Positions 600 to 61,837 of a stretch of DNA of 64,000 nt are shown here, one piece after another. Numbering within the stretch: the first letter of the stretch is position 1; each line of letters opens with the position of its first letter. The stretch comes from Pempheris klunzingeri (Eukaryota; Chordata; Actinopteri; Acropomatiformes; Pempheridae): NCBI RefSeq assembly GCF_042242105.1, contig NC_092029.1, positions 11,215,885 to 11,279,884 on the forward strand, given 5' to 3'. A program made the translations under genes and the position numbers. The notes beneath the pieces were generated by a model. That model was not told the origin of the DNA. It did not search any database and saw nothing but the letters and a program-made list of their open reading frames with translations.

Positions 600-3146
600 A
601 TGGTGCGTCTATGTTGGCTGTTAGTGGTGGTGATGGCAAATGTGTGCGTCCCCGGGTTTGGGTCGGTGTGCTGGGACAACTCCATCTGCAATGACCTGAA
701 CAACAAGGAAAGTATACTGGTGGGTCAAGAATCCTTTACTATCATCTAAATGGTTGCCTTCTTTTTATTTCTTCTCTGTTACTGTCATCACTTGGCAAAG
801 CTGGGCAACTTTATTTCTGTAAAAGATTCAATATAAAAAATCAAGAAAATAAGATAACATACAGTTTAGAGCATATACTTCCTCTCTTTACAAAATAATC
901 TGTCCTCAAGGTACATTTAGATTCGATTATGTGATATGATCGAAGAACAGCCACTAAATGGACCTTAAGAGATTGTTTTGTGACAAACAAAGTTTATTGT
1001 GCAGATCTTAAAACAGCTTTAAGTTTAATTAAAATCAATGGTAAACAGGGCATTAGATAGAAAATAGACAGGCTCTGACTGAATCTATCATGATCTAACA
1101 GATTAATATCAGATGGCTATAGAACCCTTAGACATCAAACAATAATTACTGCACTTTAAAAAAAAAAAAAACATATGTATTTCTATTCTACTCCCAGTTG
1201 AATTCTGTATATTACTGTACATTGAACAGATGTGGTTTTGAATTTAAGTACAACAACCTCCAGCAGCGTGCCCTGTTGAATAAATGTGAGTATCTGCATG
1301 GTCTTTGTTACAATATTCCTAAAGAAATACAGAAATCTTCACTTCAGCCCAAGAGAGATGTTCATGCATTTTAGCAGAACCCAGAATAAAAAACCTTCAC
1401 GTGCCACTTGTGTAGACCAGTTGCAGTTTTACTATATATACTGGAAAGCAATGATCCAGGTGAGACACAACCAAAGCTTGAGTTACTTGTTTTATAGTTT
1501 GTTATGTCAGATATTTTACAAATCTCTTAATTATAAACTGTTTCCCATTTTAGTTATCACTCTCTGAATGTTTGTCCCATGACAATTTAATATCTGTTGT
1601 AACTTCTTTCACCAGTTTTATTAACATGTTATTTATACAAAGATCAAGCTTTGATTTTGAACATGGAGAATTATTTTTTCCTATTACATCACTGGTTGTT
1701 TTATAGACATTTAAAATAAAGCTATTACTGTTGATCTAATCTACAATCAACCAACTCCTGATCTAGATTTGTAGAACCACTAATTGTTGCTTCTGCTAAA
1801 CATGTGGAATCATCAGCATACAGCATCAGATATATATATATATATATATTTTAACATCATAAGAAGATCATTTGTGAAAATTGTGTACAGGAGTGACCCA
1901 AGACAACTTCTCTGATGCACTCCATGTTTCACATATTTGACATCTAAATAACATCCAATAAAGTTTATTGTTTGCTTTCTATCGCTCAAATAATTATTTA
2001 TCCATAATAGTGCAGAATGAGAAAAACAATAACATTATACGTCGACTGTTGGATCTGAAAATGGAAACCTGTTATGTTTTGGTAAAGCAGATTAACCAAT
2101 AATTAAAGTAATTGTTGGTTGCAGCTGTAGAAGCAGGAGTCTGGATCTGGAGTGGTGTGTTCACCCTTAAACTTAAGAAAAGTCTTTGTTTTTATCCTGT
2201 TCATGTGAAATCACATCTAACGATGTAAAAAGCTTGTTATTGTCTTGATGTGGACATTTAGATCTGAATCCACGCCAACATCAAAGTTTGTGATTTGGGC
2301 TTTAGTTTGTAACACCAGAGAATTCGAATGAACACCAACAATCTTTCATTCTTGGTGCCAAAGTCTATTATTTTGTTTCAGATATATAAATGTGAGTGTC
2401 ATCCACATATTTATGATCAGAAACCTTGTCGTTTCCATAATGCAGGCATCTGCTACAATAGATCAAAAATGATACAGCCAGTTGTTCATTTGTGTATCAA
2501 CTCTTCTTGCTGTAAATGACTCACAGATGCGAGTTGTTTTAAGATGTTTGCTGGTGTCTCTGTGATCCCTTCCTCACAGGATTGTATCCACCTCTGCATG
2601 TCTGTGATGCAGACTAAATTCCCAGAGGTCAGTGCATTGGCTCTGAGGCTTAATAATGATGAGGATCCCTTCAACCTGGCCACCCTGGAAGACAAGATGT
2701 CAGAATCAGATGTGAAAACCCACAGCGACCAGCGACGCTCCTATTCAATGGAGCATTTCCGCTGGGGCAAACCTTCTGGCCGTAAACGTCGGCCTGTCAA
2801 GGTTTTTGCCTCATCTCTGGAGGGAGGGGGCTCTTCTGAGGGCAGTTTCCTCCCTCAGGCTCGCAGGCAGCTGACCAGTAACGAGGATGATGCAAAGGGG
2901 GACCTGAAGGGAGAAAGTCATCAAAACCAAGAATTGCTGAGGGGGAGGGTCAGCTCCAAGTCCCAAATCCAGTTGAGCCAGCAGGAGAGAAAAGATGGGA
3001 CCTATCGGATGAGTCACTTCAGATGGGGGAGCCCACCAGCCTCTAAACGCAACGGCAGCTTTATGAAGATGTGGGAGGAGAAACCACAGAGGCAGCTGGC
3101 CAAGCTCTTCAGGAACATTATGGTTACCAATGTACGGAGGATATAG
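600..3146 (+). CDS. pomcb: Pro-opiomelanocortin, teleost beta-type paralogue with degenerate endorphin
   Basis: Secreted prohormone cut by prohormone convertases into ACTH and MSH peptides that act on melanocortin receptors. Coding exons are 600-719 and 2580-3146; both junctions obey GT/AG and are phase 0, giving 228 aa. Residues 1 to about 21 are a hydrophobic signal peptide. Cys24, Cys30, Cys42 and Cys46 form the conserved N-terminal cysteine set. There is no gamma-MSH, as usual in teleosts. ACTH with a SYSMEHFRWG core follows an Arg-Arg site; a second HFRW core (beta-MSH) follows Arg-Lys; the endorphin region follows Lys-Arg but begins NGSFM instead of YGGFM. A poly(A) signal AATAAA is at 3341-3346. 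The gene converges on efr3b, as in mammals. Assignment to the beta paralogue rests on the divergent endorphin and is less certain than the POMC identity. Confidence 0.93.
1730..2040 (-). mobile_element. Non-LTR retrotransposon reverse transcriptase fragment
   Basis: Lies in the pomcb intron. On the minus strand, from about 2004 downward, the translation reads like the palm region of a LINE reverse transcriptase: a WINNYLSDRKQ segment, then GVHQRSCLGSLLYTIF (a decayed form of the GVPQGSxLGPLLF box). Across a short TA repeat (1831-1849) follows LYADDS, the YADD catalytic box, near 1810-1828. The frame shifts at the TA repeat. No 5' or 3' ends were found, so this is an old internal fragment; the family (L2/Rex-like) was not resolved. 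Confidence 0.65.
1831..1849. repeat. (TA)n microsatellite
   Basis: A pure TA run inside the LINE fragment in the pomcb intron. Confidence 0.9.
2739..2861 (+). other. pomcb: ACTH / alpha-MSH peptide region of pomcb
   Basis: Starts with SYSMEHFRWGKPS directly after Arg-Arg, followed by the Gly-Arg-Lys-Arg-Arg amidation and cleavage signal. Alpha-MSH is therefore 2739-2777. ACTH runs about 41 residues to the next Arg-Arg. The HFRW melanocortin pharmacophore is intact. Position 13 is Ser, where most vertebrate alpha-MSH has Val. Confidence 0.9.
2994..3044 (+). other. pomcb: beta-MSH peptide region of pomcb
   Basis: Seventeen residues, DGTYRMSHFRWGSPPAS, bounded by Arg-Lys upstream and Lys-Arg downstream. 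The HFRWG core is intact, so a functional melanocortin peptide is expected. Confidence 0.88.
3051..3143 (+). other. pomcb: Degenerate beta-endorphin region of pomcb
   Basis: Thirty-one residues after the Lys-Arg site, starting NGSFMKMWEE. The expected start is YGGFM. The N-terminal Tyr needed for opioid receptor binding is Asn, and Gly3 is Ser. The FM-x-x-W-(D/E) pattern, the length and the cleavage site persist. Confidence 0.88.
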
Positions 3147-15500: not shown

Positions 15501-18500
15501 TGATGTGTGGGGACAACATGGCAGCACTGCAGCCATATCTACCTGCTTTAAACTGCAGTCAGGACTTCTGTAACACTGTATGTGACATGCTCCTTCCAAT
15601 ATAATACAGTACCTAATGTTTATAACGATAAATATTTGCATCTGATGAACGGCAACATACAAAACCTTTTCTTTGTGGACACTCACCTCTCTGTACGCTC
15701 TCCACACTGCAGGTTGAAAAGCAGAGAGGGGACGATCTTGTCCATGTGCTGAGGGTCCCAGATGTTGGCCTGCAGTTCATCATTCACAGTCTTCCTCACC
15801 ACACCCTGCAGGCCCTTGATACCTGCCATGCGGATCCTGGGGGACACAGACATCAGAGATCATTTGACTGAGTCTATAAATGGATGATCAAATTTAGGAG
15901 ATGATATTTTCGTCTGGCTTTTAGTCTGTATCCATCAGTATCTGTCTGCTAACCTTTAATTCTGCAACGCTATATTTAACTGTTCAAAGATGTCACTTTT
16001 GTGTGTAGTCAGCAGATGACATCCATGACAACAAGATAACTTTTAAAGGGTTTCATTTTGTTTGAAGTATAAAAAGGGGCAGCAGTAGTCCAAAAAAAGA
16101 CTTTCAGAAGTAGTTTAAAAACAGAAAGTTACATAATAATTCTGCCTTTAGCGCAATCAAACGTCTGTCTACTCACTTGGTGCGGATGTCAGGGTCCTCA
16201 TAGCTGGAGTGGCACATCTCACTGAAGCGTGACACAAAGAAGTCGTAACTGCGGTGGTACGATGGTGTATCCTCCTCTATGTTGGCAAACTTCACAAACT
16301 GAGAAGGGAAGAAAGGACGGGGGGGAAATACAATAGATTACATTTTCTTGTCAAACTGTAACTCTGCAAGAGTTTCTAATACTACAGATGTACTACAGAT
16401 GTACAGCTCCTCAAAAGCCTCAGTTTAAGAGTTTATTTCAATTTGATTAAACACTTTTTAATGAAATAACTGTAAATCCCCGTGATGAATATCTCTTGAA
16501 TTAAAGTCAAACCACAGTGCCATACCATCTCATTAGGAGTGAAAAGCACAGGCAGAGGGAGGCTCTCCCACTGGGCCAGAAAATGTCACCATTTAAACAG
16601 GCTGACATTTAGCTTCACAACACTCTACAATTAATAAATTATGAAGAGGATTTCTGTACAAATCAAGACTAAAAGGATACTACCCAAAGTAAAAATTATA
16701 TAAGGTTATTCAGTAAAGCGGATGGTAATCATAGTACATAAAGTCCCCATTCAAAAACATAGGCTGATCAGCCCTTTAACCCAAAATGCTAAAATAATAA
16801 AGACTAGAGTTTATGTAGAAAATGAACATCTAAAGAAGCCTCTTGAGAACCTGATTCCTGTGTACAGAGTGAGTGTTTGGAGTGGTTTTGAAATTAAATG
16901 AAGTACCCCTGAGCAAATTAAATGAAGTGAACCCAAAGCTGCTCTTGTGAAGCTGCTCAGCTGCTGCAGTAAATTGCTGCAGCAGCAGCTGATACGCTGA
17001 CATTTTCCAGTATCACTGCCACCAACGCTGGCCAGCTTCAAGGCATAAATGAATCAACTCTGGCTCTGCTGAAACGGACTCTAAAACTGATTGAAAGCTT
17101 TAAAATAGGGTCTAAAGCCACAGGCGATTGAGATTATAAACGTTTTTGTTGCAACCAAAGACAATGCCAAGAGAAACAAACCTCTGCTGTATCTAAGTAA
17201 CAGCGAGTTGACAGAAACACTAACTCTGGTTCTGATGTGTTGAAGAGCTGCCCTCTGTTATAAAAAGGGCTCTGCAGCATAAGATTTTAGGTCAGTGAAA
17301 CAGAGTGTGAGAAGACCTGACCAGGCTCGAGTTCTGTGGTGATAAACTCTCTAATCCGTTCCTTTCACCTCCCTCTGACACCGGTCTGCTTCAGATGAGC
17401 TATACACTGCACACTAAGAGGGGAAGACGCTATGTGGTAGTTCCACTAGAACATAAAGCATCTGTGTGCACTGAAAGCCGCAGCATATGTACAGCTCTAT
17501 GTGTGAGGACGCTCAGGGTTCTGTCTGCATATAGTCTAACCAATTGCGGAGGAACTAATCCACATGTCCAACACTCTGAATGCAAAGTTTTACATTTTCA
17601 TATACTGCAAAATCAATCTACTGTTGATAGTGGTAAACAGGACTGCGCTGCACAATTTATTATACAGCACTGATATGTGTATGTATATAAGTGGATCAGC
17701 ATATGGCCTTTGTCCTAAATACACATGACTGTGTGCGAGGGAGATTGATAGCATAAAGATTATGAGTGAGAGTCTGCCGTACACGACAATCTGTATAGAC
17801 GACTGCAGAGCTTTGCCAGTGTGGGCTGCAGCTAATCTGATTTCCTTTATTTGTCCTCTGCTGACCCGGCCGACAATGTCGATAGCTGCTCCCCACTCAT
17901 CACTTCCACACCCTGTGCCCACCACTCTCTTGCTGAGCTCTGATCTTTCTCAAATACTAATGCAGTTTCCCTCTTAAGGTTAACATCTCTTACTTTGTGC
18001 CATCACAAGAGGAAAGTAAATGCGCCCTGTCAACTTTTGATTAGATAATACCCCTAAATCCACTGAAATGGGCAGAATTCCGTGCGACAGAAAAGCTTAA
18101 GAACTAAGGCACATTAGACACACATTAGTGACCAACAGTTTGAGAATGTGGGTATTTATCTAAATTTGGCCTGTTTAAATAAGCTGTCTTAGCTTTTCTA
18201 TGTTTCTTGTGACCAACAATGTGTGGGTAGGAAAATTATTTCTCTTATTAAATCATATTTATCTGATTTGGCTTTTACAGTCAACTGAAACTGCACAGTC
18301 TTTGAAAAAACGACCTTAATTGAATACAGACATCAAGCTGTGATAGTGTATTTACTGTCAAGACTCATAAAGTTATAGTTCTAGCTGAACAAAATACAAA
18401 ATGCTTATCGTAAAGGAGGAATGAAGCCACCAGTCGCCAAAAAGTACAGTGTTTTATTTGTTTTGTTGATTAATAGGTGCAAAACTCTTTAAACTAGTGA

Positions 18501-21500
18501 TATAATCCTGGAAACTCACGGAGTTGGTTCCTAGGATCTGCAGGCTCGGCTTGTCCGACTCCAGCAGTTTGCGCACCATCTTGAGGAAACTCTCCACAAA
18601 CAGGTTGATGCTCTGACAGTGGCAGGCCATCAGCAGCTGGTCCAGGGCTTCCATGGCAATGCACACATAACTGAACAGGGGAGAGAGACACACTGAAGCA
18701 TTTGGATGGCACCATTAGAAAATATAATCTGTAGGCAAATATAATCTGAGTCCGGAAATCTTATATGGATACTAAAATTAATCTATATATCCTAAATGAC
18801 TTACTGCACACAGCAACAGAATTCAAAAAGTCATAATCTCTGCCAGACAAACTCTGGAGACTAGCATACTGAGCAGACCGCCAGATGCTGCCAAGTGTAA
18901 ATGTAATATTTGCAGGCTGTTTGCATTGGGTGAGAATCATCACAGTGTGTCCTCGTCATGAGTCATAAATGACAACAACATTTCTGTGGCATATAAATTA
19001 AGTACAGAGAGTACAAAGACGTCCCCTTCAACAGCCCTGCACCAGCCATGTTATGTTTAAAAGACCAACCTGCCTCCATGTCTATTTGGCTAATTTGCAT
19101 GGAGTGCACTATAAATATTTTTTTATTATCCAGAAGGAAGTGTTACATTACACATAAATACTAGGTGTAAATGCAATGGCATCATTTTAGAGTTCCTAAT
19201 CCAGTTTGCATTTTTTTGGGTCTGTTTTTATACAGACCTACAGAGGGGCTCTTTGAATGGACAGTCCTTATGATGCAAGATGACCTCAAAATCTTCCCAG
19301 GGTTTTAATGTATTAGCTTTATGTAGAAGTTAAATGTGTGGCAATAAATAACACACACGATGCACAAACAGTATTTGCCTGCTGAGGAGACGGCTAAAAT
19401 GGTTTCCGAGAGCCTATTCTGAGTGGCGATTGACTGGCGATGCTCACCCGTATCTGTGTCGGGCTACATCCCTCGACAATCTCTCAGACAGGTAGGCTCC
19501 GATACGGTCGAGCTTCTCTGGAGCTGACAGGGCGTAGAACGTCAGCTTCTCCATGTTGGCCTTCACTAGCCCATCCTGAGAGGGTGACAGAGGGAGTTGG
19601 AAAGAAAGAGGGAAAACAAGACGGAGAAAAGAAGACAGTTTTAGGGTTTCATTGACATGGTTTAGGCCCTTAAAGGAGTAGTTCACCCAAAATGTAAAAT
19701 TCAGTCAGAAGGGATGTACACGAGGCTTGGATACAACAAAGAGGCGGATTGTTAAGACTGTCAAAAATAACTTCAGCAGCATTTTGACTGCCATCAGAGT
19801 ATATAGTAGATAATGACAAATTGATCTAGTATTCTAAAGCTTTTCCATAAACATTTCTGAACTACTGCAATGGTGCACACTGAAGTGTGTACTTCTCCTT
19901 AAAACCCATATTCTAAGAGTATAACTAGATCATCAAGTTTCACCTCCTATTTTCCCCCTTGACCTACTTGACTGCTCTTCAGTCTGGTCAGGAGGAGGAG
20001 AGAGCTAAAAACATCTATGGTCCATTGAGATCTGGTTTACATTCGGACAGAGAGCCAAAAGATGCAGTCAGTGAAGTAGCTCTCCCAATATGAACCAAAA
20101 GCTGGGGAAACACTGGAGTTATACACTCTACAGTAGCCTGTACATGGCTACGCAGGGCAAAATGACTCTAAAAATACATGGGCAGAATATCATTCATCAT
20201 TTACAAAGAAACCCAGCAGTGTTGAGATGTTGGAGGCAAAACTCAACGACATGTACTGACAGCAGGCAAATGGACGCAATGACAACTTAACCACCTCTGT
20301 CTCTAAGAGTTCAACTCAACACTTTATAGACACTTATTTTTATTTTATTAGTCAGCTCTATGAAGGTTTATTTGCTTCATAAAATAAATGGTTTGCAGTC
20401 GATGACCACTTTTATCAGAGAGGTTGAATACATTTAGCTCATATTACAGACGGTTCTCATACAATGTGGTCGTTCTAGTCTATAATATAAATATTACTTA
20501 TTTCATTCCTTATGAAGTGACGCTTAACCTTTGGTAAGAAGGATGTGAGGATTCGTCAAATATAAACAATGACTAATAATGATTATAGGAACAATTATTG
20601 AAGGTGAAAGCTGAATAGATTAGCCTGATAACATGTTATTACATTGGGATAAAATCTAATGGGATTTGAGTATTTCTGTCTGTAGCGTCTATTGCCAGTT
20701 TTCACAGCAGATATTTTGATACGTTATTGCAGGAAACACACAGGTAGAATTAACAACATTACCAATGGCTGCCTTGTTCAAAGATTTTCTGGTTCCTGAC
20801 CTTCCTATTGTGCATGCCCACTCACTGGCATGGCTTCCTGACACACCAAAATTAAATGGAGGCCTTATTAATGTTATTAGTTGCCTATGTGCTTTTCTTC
20901 CAAGGACAAGCTGTGAAAAAGGGCCTATTACTCCCATTAGAGGGTTATTTTCCAGGTCAGCACAGAGCGATACCTGTGCTTCTGTCTGCTCCTCTAAAAC
21001 ATCCTCTGGCTGGAGTCCATTATCGATCACACTGCCAGAATATTGCAGCTGGCTATAAAACACCACCCTCCAGTTGAAAAGCTGATTTTTGGTTTTTGTT
21101 CATTAGAGTCACTCATCTTGTAGCTCTGTAGACTCATGTTCCAGGCATCTGGACAACAATAACAGCAGATAGGAGACTACGAAGAGTCTCTCAGATGTTC
21201 CTTTTTTTACTCTGACAAACTCAGATGATAACTAATCCAATTTAAACTAGTAATGTACTGCGGGGACGTTTTCTGTGTTCAGGAGAAACACGCAGAGAAT
21301 ACAACATATATTCAGGCCCCTAACCAATTATCTGGGAAAAACACTGAAATACAGTAACTTTGGACACACACACCCACAAGCTCGCACAGTGTGACACAAT
21401 TTTGAGTCAATGTAATCAGACGGCTTCATTATTCCCATGCTGCTGGGACACCGTTAGTTACAGTCTCAGCCACAGCAGCTAGGAGCCAAACTTAGAAGCC

Positions 21501-38330: not shown

Positions 38331-41300
38331 ATGAGGTCAGCAGAGATCATCACCATGGTGACCTTCGCTGAGACAACACAGGTCTCTCATATGGACCTGT
38401 GTGAGCCGACGTGCATGACCGCAACCCTGTCGCCTGGGCTGAGGAGGAAAAAGATGCTGTGGCAGAATGCAGTAAAACACATCATCATCCAGCAAGAGCT
38501 CAGCGCCCAGGTGAGTGATTAGTCCACGATCATCAGTAGATTTGTTGAATCCACTTTATGAGGACTGTGTGTCCCGGAACAGATATGGTATCCTCTGAAC
38601 AATGGCCTCATTTTACCCAATTCACAGAAAACTATACAAAACTGAAACTCATGTTTGATTTCTGTGTCTGACAATGTTTGCACTGACAGCATGAACATGA
38701 TTTAGTGGGATATTACTGGATTAACTGAGATATCCGTCTGAGATTCCTTCTGTCACTCCAATGCAATGTAGATGAACAGATTTTCATGTGAGCTGTGCAA
38801 AGCTTTCAACACATAATAAAAATATAAACATGAAAGAAATTCAAATATAATTTTGTAATTTATCAAAATGTAATTCAATGCCACGAGAACTGAACTGCGT
38901 ATGAAATCCAGTTTGTTTTAGCTGTATTGTCATGTGGCCGAAATCAAGCAGATACATATAGAGGTCACACAATCTGATCTACCTGCATGGGTACCAATAG
39001 GCCTGGTGAGAGAATAATAAAGGATCAGTGCCCATAAATACAGTTCAGTGATGATTATTACCATTTCTATACTATACCATCCTAATGGCCACTTGTTAAA
39101 GGAATGGTGTGAAGTTCAGCGAAAAGAGTGGGGACAGGAAAAGTGCCTGACGCATTTGATTCTCTGTCATGTTTGATAGGTGGGTGTGGAGCCAGCAAGG
39201 AAAATCTTTGTTACAGATACCTACATAGAGGAGATCAACAAACAAATCCGCAGCAGGGCCTCACGCGGTGTCACAAAACGCCGCTCGTCCACGTTCAGAG
39301 TGCACCCTTCCCAGATCCGTGGCTCCACCAGCACACAATCCAGTGTCAGGGGCTCTTTTAACGACTACGCCAGCGATGCCGACTTTTTTCTTCACTGGGG
39401 CCACACGATTCGTGGAGTCTACATACCCAGCCTGAGGCACACCTTCAAGTCTCGTGATCTGGAGAAACTCTACCAGCAACACTACTCTCACCAAAGACGC
39501 AACTCTCTAGCCATCACCAATGTAATCGACGCAATGGCCAAGCTACACATATTGGTTCTGTACCTGGCACTGGCACCTGAGGCAGTCACAGACACCATTC
39601 GTTGTTGCCTGACTGGTATTTTCATGGTGTTAGCTATAGCCCTGTGCATCATAGTGTTAACTTGCAAAGACTCCATGTCCCCACGGTGGCTTCACTGTGC
39701 CGGCCTAGCTAGCTGGCTGCTGCAGACCACACAGGTGCTGGGAGGACTGGTGTACGGTCTGGAAAAAGATCCGTCGTGGTATGTTCTGTTCACACTGTTC
39801 TCCACTTACACGCTGCTGCCGTTACCGCTACTGTGGGCCATTTGCGCGGGCTCCCTCACCTCAGTGCTGCACCTTGTGGTGGAAATGGTGTGCTACTACA
39901 ATGATGCCATCCTTCTGAGAAGGGTGAGAAAATCAGCCGACTACACTGGCTTTAAATACACTGTCCCCAGCTTATATATTAAGTGTTATATCTGAAATTT
40001 ATATTAATTAATCAAACCATCTTTTATAAGATAACATCCCTTTTGTACATATTTTACTGTCAAAGTATATTATGCTATAAAGTTTTTAGTCCAATTCATT
40101 ACAGATGAAGATTCCCTCTTTTCGGACCTGGTTTCATACATATTTATATCATGCCCAGTTTTATGTTCCAGATCCTAAACAACTAGAGGTACTACACAGT
40201 TTAAGGCTTAATGAAACACCAGCTGTTTTTCCAGTTCTTTCAGTGAAAAGTGATTTGATTGATTTTACTTTTCCAATCATTATTCCTATCTGCAGCCCCA
40301 AATATCATCCCCCTGATAATCCCTCAAGTCAACTAAAAGAAGACTCAATTTCCTTCTTTCCCTCCTTTCTTATCCTCCTCTTGCATTGAATGCAAAATCT
40401 CTCTTGGATGCAGGTGTTTGCCAAAGGCCTGCTGTACTTAGGCATGAACACAGCAGGCTTGTTCATCCACTACCTGACAGACCACGCCCAGAGGCAGGTT
40501 TTCCTGGAGACACGGCGCTGCATTGAGGGTCGCCTCAAGCTAGAGCAAGAGAACCAGAGACAGGTACCGGTGCCTCTGCTGTTGTGTCATAGGTTAGACT
40601 TGAAGGAGCGTGAAGACGAATTGTATAATGACCACTGCTGACTGTTATCACTTGTCTTTGAACCTTGGTCGTTGATTGTCATCAATATTTATCACTTAAA
40701 GGATCAAAAAATGCCTCCTGACTCACTATTACCTTATGCTACCAAATGTATTTTAACACTTGGCCACTCAGGAGCGCCTGGTGCTGTCGATCCTGCCTCG
40801 CTTTGTTGCCTTGGAGATGATCGCTGACATGGGCTCTTTGGAGGATGAACTCAATCCTCAGGAGTTTCACAAGATCTATATCCACCAGTACAAAGACGTC
40901 AGGTACGCACACACACACAAAGTTAGTATGCATGTATTTCCAAGGGGTATAGAACCCTTATCCTGTTTTTATACTGTTATACTGTTTATACTTGGTGTCG
41001 CCCTTAATATGCTACTTCTCTCTCTCCTCTTTGCAGCATCCTTTTTGCAGACATCAAGGGCTTCACCCTGTTGTCCATGAACCTGTCAGCACAGGATTTG
41101 GTCCGAACCCTCAACGAGCTCTTTGGACGCTTCGACCGACTGGCAGAGGTGCGAATTTGGGCCCTTTGTTCTCTTTTTTTTTAGATAAAATATATTTGAC
41201 ACAACTTCCATCCATTGCCATCCATTTATTTTCTCTGTTCCCCGGTGTCGCAGGAGCACCACTGTCTGCGGATAAAGATACTGGGAGACTGTTACTACTG

Positions 41301-44300
41301 TGTGTCAGGGGTCCCCGAGCCGCAGCGCGCCCATGCCCGTCACTGCGTTGAGATGGGCCTGGCTATGATCAACACCATACAGTCAGTGTCAACTCGCTGG
41401 AGTTCTTTAGGGGCTATCATGCTCTCTCCTGATCTGATCTGAATTTCATTGATCATTTTGTTTTGAGAGTCGTGTGAAAATTAAAAGCATGGACCAAATC
41501 CTATTTTGAAAAAATCTGCAGCTCAGCTGTAGCATTTATGTTTATGTGCAGAAAGGACAATAGCCATTAGTCTAACATTGTCACTTCACTATCCACCATT
41601 ACTAGGCATGTGCGGCGGCAGCTGAACTATGACATGAACATGAGGATTGGGATCCACTCGGGCTCTGTCCTGTGTGGGGTGCTGGGCCTGCAGAAATGGC
41701 AGTTTGACGTCTGGTCCTGGGACGTAGGCATCGCCAACATGCTGGAGGCCGGGGGCATACCGGGGTCAGAGATCCAGCAGAGTACTCCTTTGATGCACAC
41801 ACACATTTGATCTCTGCCTGAGTTACCACATATTCTCATGTTAATTTTATGTTATTTTCATGTATAAAATTAGATCCTAAGTTTTATTTGATAGGATTTT
41901 AAATTTGAGGCAAAATTTGTGCTTTGAATCGAAGTGAAATCACATTTTTTTTCCTGAAACACAGCAAAGAACATAAACACATACCCTTTCTAGATTAGTT
42001 GATAATTGTCATGTGTAAAAAGTGAAACAAATTTCCTCATTCTGAAAAAAAATTCTAATTTTTTTCTTATCATGATTGGAGGGTTTTATCTTTGTACATT
42101 ACCAATAACTTTGTCTGCTTTTATTTTTTCTCATCCAGACGCATCCACATCTCTAGGGCGACTCTGGACTGTCTAGAGGGAACCTACAAGACCGAAGACG
42201 GTCATGGCCGTGACAGGAGCGAGTTTCTTCTCAAACACAACATCGACACTTTCCTCATCTGTCCTCAGGAGGAAGGGAACAAAGCCTCCCACGCTGAGCG
42301 TCCCAAAGTCAAGAAGACAAATCGAACGTGGAACCCAGAGCTGCCCTTAGGGATTGACATGAACAGTGTAGGTGCAGGCATACAAAAACTGAAGAGGGTG
42401 TTATCTTTAACACGTCCCACTTGTTAGCCCTAAGTAGTAAAATGTTTCAATCTTATCCGTATCCCCCTCTTGCAGATCCTGGCCTCCTTTACAAATGGCT
42501 CGCTCCCAAACATATGGCAGTCCACCTCCAAGGAGATCAACAAACGTATCAAACATGCCATCGAGGTTCGAAGCAGTGACCGTATGCACAGGGAGCACAT
42601 CACCCCCCTGGCGCTGGTGTTCAAAGACACACACATTGAGGACAAGGTCAGCAAGTACAGATGGTGGTTCAGAGGGCGTTTGGTAGGAGGGACGCCAGAG
42701 AGCAAATGATGATGACTGTGATCTTTCTTTGATCTCTTTTGGTTGGTCCAGTTCTCCCAGATGAGAGATGAGATGTTCAACTCCAACCTGGTCTGCTCCT
42801 TCATCATGTTCCTCTTTCTCATGGCTGCCCAGGTCCTCGTCCCTGCTCCCAGGTAGGGAGCAATTGTCCAGTTGAAGCTCACATTTTTAGCACCAGTAAA
42901 TTCAAAGATTTTAATGGGTTTATTTAAAGATATTGAACATTGTTAAATTCAGCTTTTTCTGACTGAAAACCTCAGATTTAAAGAAAATGTTGGTTTAATC
43001 CTATTGAGAAATGCGCTGTTTGTCTGGTTTTAAAGCCGGTGTGTGTAGGATTTGAATTTGTTGCTCCGGTGCCATCTGGAAATGGCACCAATCATTTAAA
43101 TCATTTAAAGTTCGTCCCACAACCCCGTAAATTCACACTTCTCAGAGCATTTGTCACACGCTTCTATATGTTCTATTCCACCCCGGATTAACATTTTCAC
43201 TACTTCCTTCTCCTTATCCTCCTCCCTTGTTCTCCTTCAGCAGGCTGTTCCCGGCCGCCCTCCAGTTTTCAGTCTGTCTACTGGCCTACATGATGCTGCT
43301 GCTGCTGGTCCTGGCTGAAGAGTTCAAGTGGGCTCCTGCACCGCTGCAGCAGTTCTGCTGCTGGATCCATGAAAACAACAACGCCCGCAACCTCCTCACC
43401 CTTACTGCCATCGCCATCAACTTTGGCCTGGTCTCTGCCGACATGGTGAGAGTCTGAACAATGCAGGGCCAGATTTATACACATAAAAACATTAATGAAA
43501 CTGGACCTTGAAAATTACATGAATGTTAGTAAGTGGAGTCTCTGTTATCATGTCTTCTGTTATTTGCATGATCGCTGAACTTTGCTCCAAAGCATTGATT
43601 AGCATGAATCTAAATATAACCAAAACATCTGAAAACCAGCTCAAATTTCAAATATGTCAGATAAGAATTGTGTATCTTTGTCCTCTGTCTTTCAGTGTTT
43701 GGTTGATTGTCTAAGGTTTTATGTGATTTGTATGTTTTTATGCTGTGTGCCTGCGTCCAGGTATGGTGCATTCTCACAGACACGCAGGTTGATGTAACGG
43801 ACAGAACCAACACAGCCTCCCGTCCGCACACTGCCTGCACTTACCCCGAGGTAAGGACCTCAACAGCCATTTAAAAGTGGAGATTTAACAAGTCACGACG
43901 ATTATCTGTCATCATAAACTTCTGGTCACTTTTCACCCCAAGAAAGCGATTGTCATCGCAATACATTCTTCTTCAGCATCTCTGAGGTGCCTTCTCTTCG
44001 CTCCCTCTGTCAGGTCTTTGTACTGAGCGGTGTGATTGCCATGGTGACTTGTGCCGTGTTCCTGCGTCTAAACTCTCTGCTGAAGCTGGCGGTGCTGCTG
44101 CTAGCAGTGGCTATCTACTCTTACCTCATCCACCTGGCCTTCCTCACACTCACGCACCACGATGTGCTGCACAGGTCAGTGCACACGATGACCTTTTAGG
44201 GTTCCTCTCTACATTCAGATGTTTATAATTGTTTTGCTAAGCTTTTCAGTGTATATATACTTCTACATATGCTTGATAATCTGGTTGTATTTTTTGTCAC

Positions 44301-47300
44301 ATTTTCCTGTCTTACATGCATCATTTCTATCTTCCTCCTCTCTTCATCAACTTGTGCACAGGTCTCACTATGCCAGGAGAAAAGGCATCTCTATCCTTCT
44401 CATGGCCATGTTTATTGTCGCTGTGTTCTATAATGGACGGCAGGTACAAATAAACTGACATTTATTAATTTGCAGTTTGGATATCATTTTTCTAACCTGC
44501 ATTACTGAGACCTAATCTGTAGATGATGGTTTTATCTCCCCTTTACTTTCCAGTGGGAGGCCACTGCCAGACTGGACTTCCTGTGGCGTCTGCAGGCCCA
44601 GCAGGAAGTGGAGGACATGAAGGAATTGCGGGAACACAACGAGTGTCTACTGCACAACATCCTGCCTGTGCATGTGGCGCGACATTTTCTGGACCGGAGC
44701 AAGAACGATGAGGTGCAGAAAACACGACCTCACCCCTGACTGTGTCGGCCTCCTCCTACAATATGTTTCATTGCTGTTACTAAGGGAGGAAAAACACAGG
44801 GAGAGAATAATCCTTTTGTATTTAAATATTCTTTAAATGCTGATTGGACTATTATAGAGATATGAAATATTAATATAATTTATTGACCTTCTTAACTTTT
44901 GGAGCTGGTTTCCTAGCTTCATAACTAAATGCTGTACTGAATAAATCAACATAAATACCAGTATGTTTTTGACAATACGCAGTCAAGATGAAAGTGTATG
45001 ACACAATTTTGATTTCAGGAGCTTTACTCGCAGTCCTACGATGAAGTCGGTGTTATGTTTGCCTCCATCGCTGGCTTCAATGAGTACTTTGAGGAGAAAG
45101 AGATCAAACATGAGGGAGTGGACTGCCTCCGACTTCTGAATGAGATCATTGCTGGCTTTGATGAGGTGAGCGTGGGCCTGGAAATTAAAGCGTGACCATG
45201 TGACTCTTTACATTACATCAAAATCTGAATAAAGTGACATACTCCAAGTATGGTACCGCTTTTGAAGGGTAGTAGATGCACAGTGTATTTCTGGGTACTG
45301 TCAATAAGATAATGAAGAGATTGAGTTATAATTCAGCTTTCAAATGCATGAATACATTTATCTGTGGCATTCTTCCTGTTGTTTTTTCACCTTTTCCATT
45401 TAGCTGATAAAAATAAGTTAAGCAGAGATAGAGGGGTTTAATCCAGGACGTGCTGTTGACAAATTGGATTGCTACCCTTTGCTTAACTCAGCTGCCATAT
45501 ATGAGACTGATGTATAACGTCACCTCTTTATCTCTAAATGTTTCCTCACAAGTTGCTGGAGGAGTCGTACTTTCACTATGTGGAGAAGATAAAGACCATT
45601 GGGAGCTGCTACATGGCCGCCTCTGGCTTAGCTCCAGACAAGCAGGTGGGATATGCTCCCTTGCACATTCAGCAATTTTTTTGTTTTGACTACATAATTT
45701 TTTTTGCCTTTCCGTCATTCATTCCTCCCTTCTCTCTCTCTCTGCATCTATCTGTCTGTCTCTGTCCATCTCTCAGGCTTCTTTAAATGAATGGAACCAC
45801 CTGAGTGAGCTGGTTTTGTTTGCTTTTGCAATGCAGGAGACCTTGAAAGAGATTAACAGGCACTCTGCCAAAAACTTTCAGCTGCGTGTGGGTAAGTGGC
45901 TTACCTCCCATACACACACAAACACACTCTGCAAGGATCTCTGGTGTCGTAGACTTAATACCAATTACTAATTGGTCTAAAGTGAATTAGTTGACTGTGT
46001 TGCACACAAACAGGCATTGCTCATGGGCCAGTGGTCGCAGGGGTGATCGGCGCCACCAAGCCGCAGTATGACATCTGGGGGTCAACGGTGAACCTGGCCA
46101 GCCGCATGGACAGTACAGGCGTGAGCGGGTGCATCCAGGTACCCGAGGCCACGCGCAGGATCCTGGCAGAATGGGGGTTTGTTTTGGAGCTGCGTGGAGA
46201 AATCTTTGTCAAGGGGGTGAGTGGCTGTACAGTTGATATTTTTACGTGCTACAGTAGGAAAAACACTTTTTAAGTATAACTAGTAACATTAAAGGTCCCA
46301 TATGTTGCTCCTTATCGATACGTTCATGCTAATATTTGCAGGTCCTACAAGAGCTGGTTTACATGGTTTAATGTTCAAAAAGCACATTATTCTACTCATA
46401 GCAGACGTGGACAGCGAGGTGGATTCAGGAGGTTTTCAGTGGGCGGGGACAGTCAGCCCGCTGAAGAGCTGGAGGAGGTCACATGATCAACAGATCCCCT
46501 TGTGACATCATAAGAGTAGCCAAATGTAAATGGAGCGTTTTTACACATCTTTGCGGGAAGATTTGGCAGGAGAACAGAGAGGAATGTATTTTTTTCTTAG
46601 AGTTCAGCAATCTCTAGGCACACCAGGGACACATTTATGTTGAAAAGACATTTAAAAGTGTATTTTGCGTAATATGGGACCTTTTAATGATGCCTCTGTC
46701 CAGTTTAAAGTGTCCCAGTAAAAGACTGACGCCTCAACAAATTCTAGCTGCATCTCACTTCAACCTGAGAATCTGCCAGAATAGCTGGAAATACGCGGGA
46801 TCAGGAGAGGACAGCTTTAAGCAGACTTAGACGCTGGTGAAAGCAATCACTAATTAGTTTGTAGAGTGTAGACATGTAGAAATGAACTAAAACAAGGGGG
46901 ACATCTAGTGGTGAAGAGAAACAACAGCCATTGGCATATACCGGTTTATGTGGTATGTTTTTATTACGTCTTTTTTTCTATTTTAAGCACTTTGAGCTGC
47001 ATTTTATCAATGAAAAGTGGCGTACAAATTATTATTATCATTATTTTTATTATTGTTGTTGTTGTTATTATTATGATTATTGTTCTGGAAGGGGAAATTT
47101 AGTGCATGAAATGTTTATATATTAATTCATTATAACTATATTTGTGAAGAGGTCTTGATAATAAAAGCCTTGAAGGTAACTTAGAAAGGATGGCTACACA
47201 TCGTGACCTCTGCTGTCATCTCAGGTGAGCGAACGTCAGGGGAAAGTGCGCACCTATTTCATCAGCACCATGCGCAGTAAGGGGGCCAACGCTGCAACAG

Positions 47301-51070: not shown

Positions 51071-61837
<10,767 letters not shown>

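Follow-up and report, generated by a model that had tools for sequence, protein, structure and literature searches.

A pomcb-type gene of Pempheris klunzingeri with an endorphin segment that has lost the opioid core

The pomcb locus and its neighbours

The window, the whole 64-kb stretch of Pempheris klunzingeri DNA that was analysed, carries a complete pomcb coding region close to its left end (Table 1). Two coding exons join in phase over a GT...AG intron to encode an intact prohormone of 228 aa, with exon limits assigned manually, using GT/AG signals and phase in genomic sequence alone. The precursor opens with a signal peptide and a four-cysteine N-terminal region (MVRLCWLLVVVMANVCVPGFGSVCWDNSIC...DCIHLC), and its cysteines and dibasic sites are present, all as judged by eye. 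Pfam ACTH_domain matches two stretches of the coding frame (E 1e-19), and the ACTH and MSH segments contain HFRW cores flanked by basic sites, by which the POMC prohormone family is recognised. With ACTH-domain matches limited to two and a third HFRW absent from the precursor, the gene lacks an epsilon-MSH. Direct repeats of at least 15 bases between 560 and 3200 comprise three two-copy 15-base families. All copies are intronic, so at this setting there is no trace of an internal duplication of the kind that gives epsilon-MSH. A solved-structure search with the POMC exon returned five weak matches (best E 0.75), which were judged to be chance.

Table 1. Features of the pomcb gene and of the remaining window, with positions counted from the first base of the window.
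Feature	Position	Strand	Remarks
pomcb coding exon 1	600..719	+	Residues 1-40, with signal peptide and beginning of N-POMC; GT donor follows
Intron ORF	1813-2034	-	By eye like a LINE reverse-transcriptase fragment; no Pfam match at E 0.05
pomcb coding exon 2	2580..3146	+	Remaining N-POMC, ACTH/alpha-MSH, beta-MSH, endorphin segment, stop
ACTH(1-40)	2739..2858	+	36/40 identical to tilapia POMCb
alpha-MSH, SYSMEHFRWGKPS	2739-2777	+	First part of ACTH; GRKR follows
beta-MSH, DGTYRMSHFRWGSPPAS	2994..3044	+	15/17 identical to tilapia POMCb
Lys-Arg cleavage site (AAA CGC)	3045..3050	+	Ends beta-MSH and precedes the endorphin segment
Endorphin segment, NGSFMKMWEEKPQRQLAKLFRNIMVTNVRRI	3051..3143	+	31 residues, directly after Lys-Arg, then TAG stop
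Asn-Gly-Ser sequon, endorphin residues 1-3	3051..3059	+	Sole N-X-S/T (X not Pro) motif of the precursor
C-terminal Arg-Arg, endorphin residues 29-30	3135..3140	+	Lys-Arg at the same residues in tilapia POMCb
EFR3 gene	18457-19704	-	By Pfam EFR3_ARM; tail to tail with pomcb
Adenylyl cyclase gene	~39180-46270	+	AC_N and catalytic domains (Pfam)
PARP1 gene pieces	~53355-59843	+	Zinc finger (just below the Pfam cut-off), PADR1 zinc ribbon, WGR, regulatory domain
Adenosine receptor-like frame	53698-54903	-	402 residues, stop-free; best match A2a, E 2e-76

Further genes lie to the right of pomcb. One exon of the EFR3 gene scores well over the Pfam cut-off and a second below it, and the gene probably reaches to ~6900, judging by eye only. 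The catalytic fragment of the adenylyl cyclase gene finds its best match in type 8 among the 35 solved sequences listed; by neighbourhood the gene is probably adcy3. The arrangement resembles the EFR3B-ADCY3 neighbourhood of human POMC. Near the right end, a frame matching adenosine receptors, unbroken over the seven-helix region, lies on the opposite strand to PARP1 exons that flank it on both sides. Adenosine receptor genes usually carry an intron in the seven-helix region, so this frame may be a retrocopy-like receptor that lacks introns and sits within parp1.

Identity of the gene and of its endorphin segment

The reference peptides come from the Nile tilapia table of PMC7582737 (POMCb = MT740812), a comparison with one species and no tree. 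Residues identical to tilapia POMCb, POMCa1, and POMCa2, respectively, number 36, 24, and 21 in ACTH (40 compared), 13, 12, and 12 in the alpha-MSH within it (13 compared), 15, 12, and 11 in beta-MSH (17 compared), and 23, 12, and 12 in endorphin (31 compared). Every compared peptide is thus closest to tilapia POMCb, alpha-MSH by a single residue. By this sequence comparison with one species the gene is of the pomcb type, in agreement with the beta-type assignment made in an earlier sequence-only reading of the window. Within the endorphin, 10 of the 31 columns are invariant across the window and all three tilapia sequences. In nine more, including Asn1, the window shares the residue of tilapia POMCb against another residue on which POMCa1 and POMCa2 agree.

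Translation of the endorphin segment places NGSFM directly after Lys-Arg, where the opioid core YGGFM is expected. Two of the five core residues are changed, as the sequence-only reading had reported. The N-terminal Tyr-Gly-Gly-Phe by which opioid peptides are recognised is replaced by NGSF, and this loss of the motif supports the earlier prediction that the peptide should not be opioid. No stop interrupts the reading frame between 2520 and the TAG that follows the segment at the end of the coding exon, so the claimed absence of a stop or frameshift holds, as does the retention of the dibasic site immediately upstream. The FMK-x-W-E pattern that had also been pointed out is kept as well, within an FMK-x-WEEKPQ stretch common to the window and tilapia POMCb. 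The remark on a persisting 31-residue length stands for the segment itself but not as a conserved feature, since the tilapia POMCa1, POMCa2, and POMCb endorphins have 32, 35, and 33 residues (PMC7582737).

By profile, the segment falls on either side of the family cut-off, depending on its context. Against a curated cut-off of 23 bits, Pfam Op_neuropeptide (PF08035) scores the isolated window peptide at 27.6 bits (E 2.6e-6) and precursor residues 178-228 at 25.8 bits. The tilapia POMCa1 and POMCa2 endorphins reach 78.5 bits each, and that of POMCb 31. Embedded in the 208-aa stop-to-stop frame, the window segment reaches 22.5 bits, just below the cut-off. Judged by these scores, it is probably a genuine endorphin relative and not a chance match.

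The closest known counterpart is tilapia POMCb. It was cloned from brain cDNA, and its endorphin, printed as NGGFMKPWEEKPQGQLAKFFRNILVKDVKRIMG, begins NGGFM (PMC7582737). The two precursors share Asn in place of Tyr1, the pattern FMK-x-WEEKPQ-x-QLAK-x-FRNI, a dibasic pair at residues 29-30, and an identical alpha-MSH. In contrast, Gly3 of the tilapia peptide is Ser in the window, the NGG of tilapia leaves no sequon at Asn1, its endorphin ends in IMG, and the tilapia precursor has an extra epsilon-MSH. The cloned sequence also bears on whether YGGFM is really present in P. klunzingeri and masked by a fault in sequencing or assembly or by wrong exon calling. Such an error is conceivable for a single assembly read at the genomic level only. 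However, Asn at the same position in the tilapia cDNA largely refutes it for Asn1, and the stop-free exon carries on into the endorphin segment, which leaves this explanation extremely unlikely.

Loss of the opioid core in the window pomcb gene is real, but pomcb of other fish has already been described with it. According to PMC7582737, tilapia POMCb cannot yield bioactive beta-endorphin, its opioid motif being lost, and POMCa1 and POMCa2 keep YGGFM; the beta-endorphins of these two have a C-terminal segment homologous to that of the window but differ from it in their intact core, and the window matches only 12 of 31 residues of each. The zebrafish POMCb endorphin has likewise lost the YGGF core (review PMC9353172). 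That precursor differs in being described without N-terminal sequences, whereas the window gene has its N-terminal region. The endorphin region of POMC2 is described as degenerated across many teleost lineages (PMC4992253). Since epsilon-MSH is reported for both tilapia POMCb (PMC7582737) and cichlid POMC2 (PMC4992253), POMC2 would be the same copy as POMCb. The POMC2 of Astatotilapia burtoni thus resembles the window gene as a second-type POMC with an endorphin region reported as degenerated in many teleost lineages, but has the tandem duplication that gives rise to epsilon-MSH; the likeness is one of published description (PMC4992253). The proposal that the motif loss reflects subfunctionalisation also has a precedent, in that the title of de Souza et al. 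2005, cited in PMC4992253, speaks of subfunctionalisation, in both expression and peptide domains, following the duplication of POMC in teleosts. The available sections of PMC2865548, PMC8945561, and PMC5394176 make no mention of opioid-core loss in pomcb. Across the open-licence literature, the strings NGSFM, NGGFM, NGSFMK, and NGGFMK and six b-type peptide strings gave PMC7582737 as the sole relevant match. The window pomcb gene fits the statements printed for the teleost pomcb genes covered here and, on this evidence, confirms the published pattern.

Constraint on the endorphin segment

Whether the segment is held by selection was approached with a neutral simulation in which change accumulates on two lines starting from the window segment, with 4000 runs per distance. 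The probability of at least 23/31 identity with no stop is 0.86, 0.63, 0.31, and 0.11 at 0.05, 0.1, 0.15, and 0.2 substitutions per site, and 0.029, 0.004, and 0.0003 at 0.25, 0.3, and 0.4. This suggests that the endorphin segment may be constrained, depending on the real distance between the window fish and tilapia.

One extreme of the possible readings is pure decay, in which no constraint acts on the segment and its intact frame reflects nothing more than the short time elapsed. It would accord with the change of two of the five core residues, with a Pfam score below that of tilapia POMCb (27.6 vs 31 bits), and with the degeneration in many lineages (PMC4992253) and the loss in zebrafish (PMC9353172). 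The observed identity is also not improbable under neutrality at up to 0.15 substitutions per site. However, the Asn1 common to tilapia means that in each line the segment has probably stayed free of stops from the split onwards, and 23/31 identity becomes improbable past ~0.25 substitutions per site. Pure decay is considered highly improbable.

At the other extreme, the segment would be a basic peptide of ~28 residues with a new non-opioid target, held by selection after the loss of Tyr1. The segment matches tilapia POMCb at 23 of 31 residues and neither sequence contains a stop, which argues for this, as does the fall of the neutral probability from 0.86 to 0.004 between 0.05 and 0.3 substitutions per site. 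The dibasic pair at residues 29-30 is also kept, and it is absent from tilapia POMCa1 and POMCa2. Similar low rates of change are reported for every POMC copy of Amphiprion and its relatives, with differing beta-endorphin peptides (PMC7067429). Against a new function, the comparison covers a single relative at the protein level. Endorphin is moreover the least conserved of the compared peptides, though not significantly (23/31 vs 36/40, P 0.11; vs 51/57, P 0.074), and its helical moment is not above that of shuffled sequences (P 0.19, with 0.30 and 0.11 for the tilapia POMCb and POMCa1 peptides). A survey of the A. burtoni pituitary also detected no peptide exclusive to POMC2 (PMC4992253). On balance, a new function of this kind is unlikely.

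Processing and the role of the duplicate

The most probable explanation, held with good confidence, is that of an ordinary pomcb gene kept for its melanocortins, with an endorphin that has been non-opioid since the change of Tyr1 to Asn and an opioid role left to the pomca copies. The gene would be retained for ACTH, alpha-MSH, and beta-MSH, on which selection presumably acts. The Tyr1 change would have rendered the endorphin inactive at opioid receptors, most simply before the split from tilapia as both fish have Asn1, and opioid signalling in P. klunzingeri would fall to the pomca copies. Prohormone convertases should still cut at Lys-Arg, since the same cut ends beta-MSH, and a non-opioid peptide of 28-31 residues is probably released as a by-product.

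The sequence-only reading had listed the kept dibasic site among the persisting features and asked whether a non-opioid peptide is still released, but the site does not argue for a retained endorphin peptide. It also frees the C-terminus of beta-MSH, so its presence needs no explanation in terms of endorphin, and selection on beta-MSH alone can keep it. Cutting at Lys-Arg was deduced in flounder from the presence of beta-MSH, although beta-endorphin itself was not detected in the pars distalis (PMC3797980). In the A. burtoni pituitary, 164 detected peptides derive from POMC prohormones, none of them unique to POMC2 although its transcript is present there (PMC4992253). These two observations count against release of the endorphin peptide. 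Seven of the peptides have sequence common to all three POMCs, so processing of POMC2 is still possible in that species. A counter-point to the by-product view is possible selection on the endorphin peptide itself, should the divergence from tilapia exceed ~0.25 substitutions per site. Nor is pomcb function to be assumed in every fish, as the zebrafish gene has at times been termed a pseudogene (PMC9353172).

The Ser at residue 3 (AGC) turns Asn1 into an N-glycosylation sequon. Given Asn1 and Gly2, the composition of the precursor leads to an expectation of Ser or Thr at residue 3 in ~14 of 100 cases, so the sequon may be accidental. If used, a glycan at Asn1 could hinder cutting at Lys-Arg. 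This allows for a further reading, in which selection maintains the segment as a non-opioid peptide bearing, in this lineage, an N-glycan on its N-terminal Asn. Next to Lys-Arg, the glycan would slow the convertases and leave beta-MSH with a C-terminal extension that is glycosylated, and what was once an opioid hormone would have turned into a processing or sorting element. Such a role is considered very doubtful. No mention of a sequon at Asn1 was met in the subset of listed open-licence papers on POMC endorphin that was consulted, with glycosylation queried only in PMC3797980, in its available sections.

The preferred explanation, an ordinary pomcb gene kept for its melanocortins, would make this gene a further example of duplicated hormone genes splitting their peptide products, with pomcb keeping the melanocortins and dropping the opioid. 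If the remaining segment is under selection, it would offer a clean case for asking what role the endorphin tail has without its opioid head.
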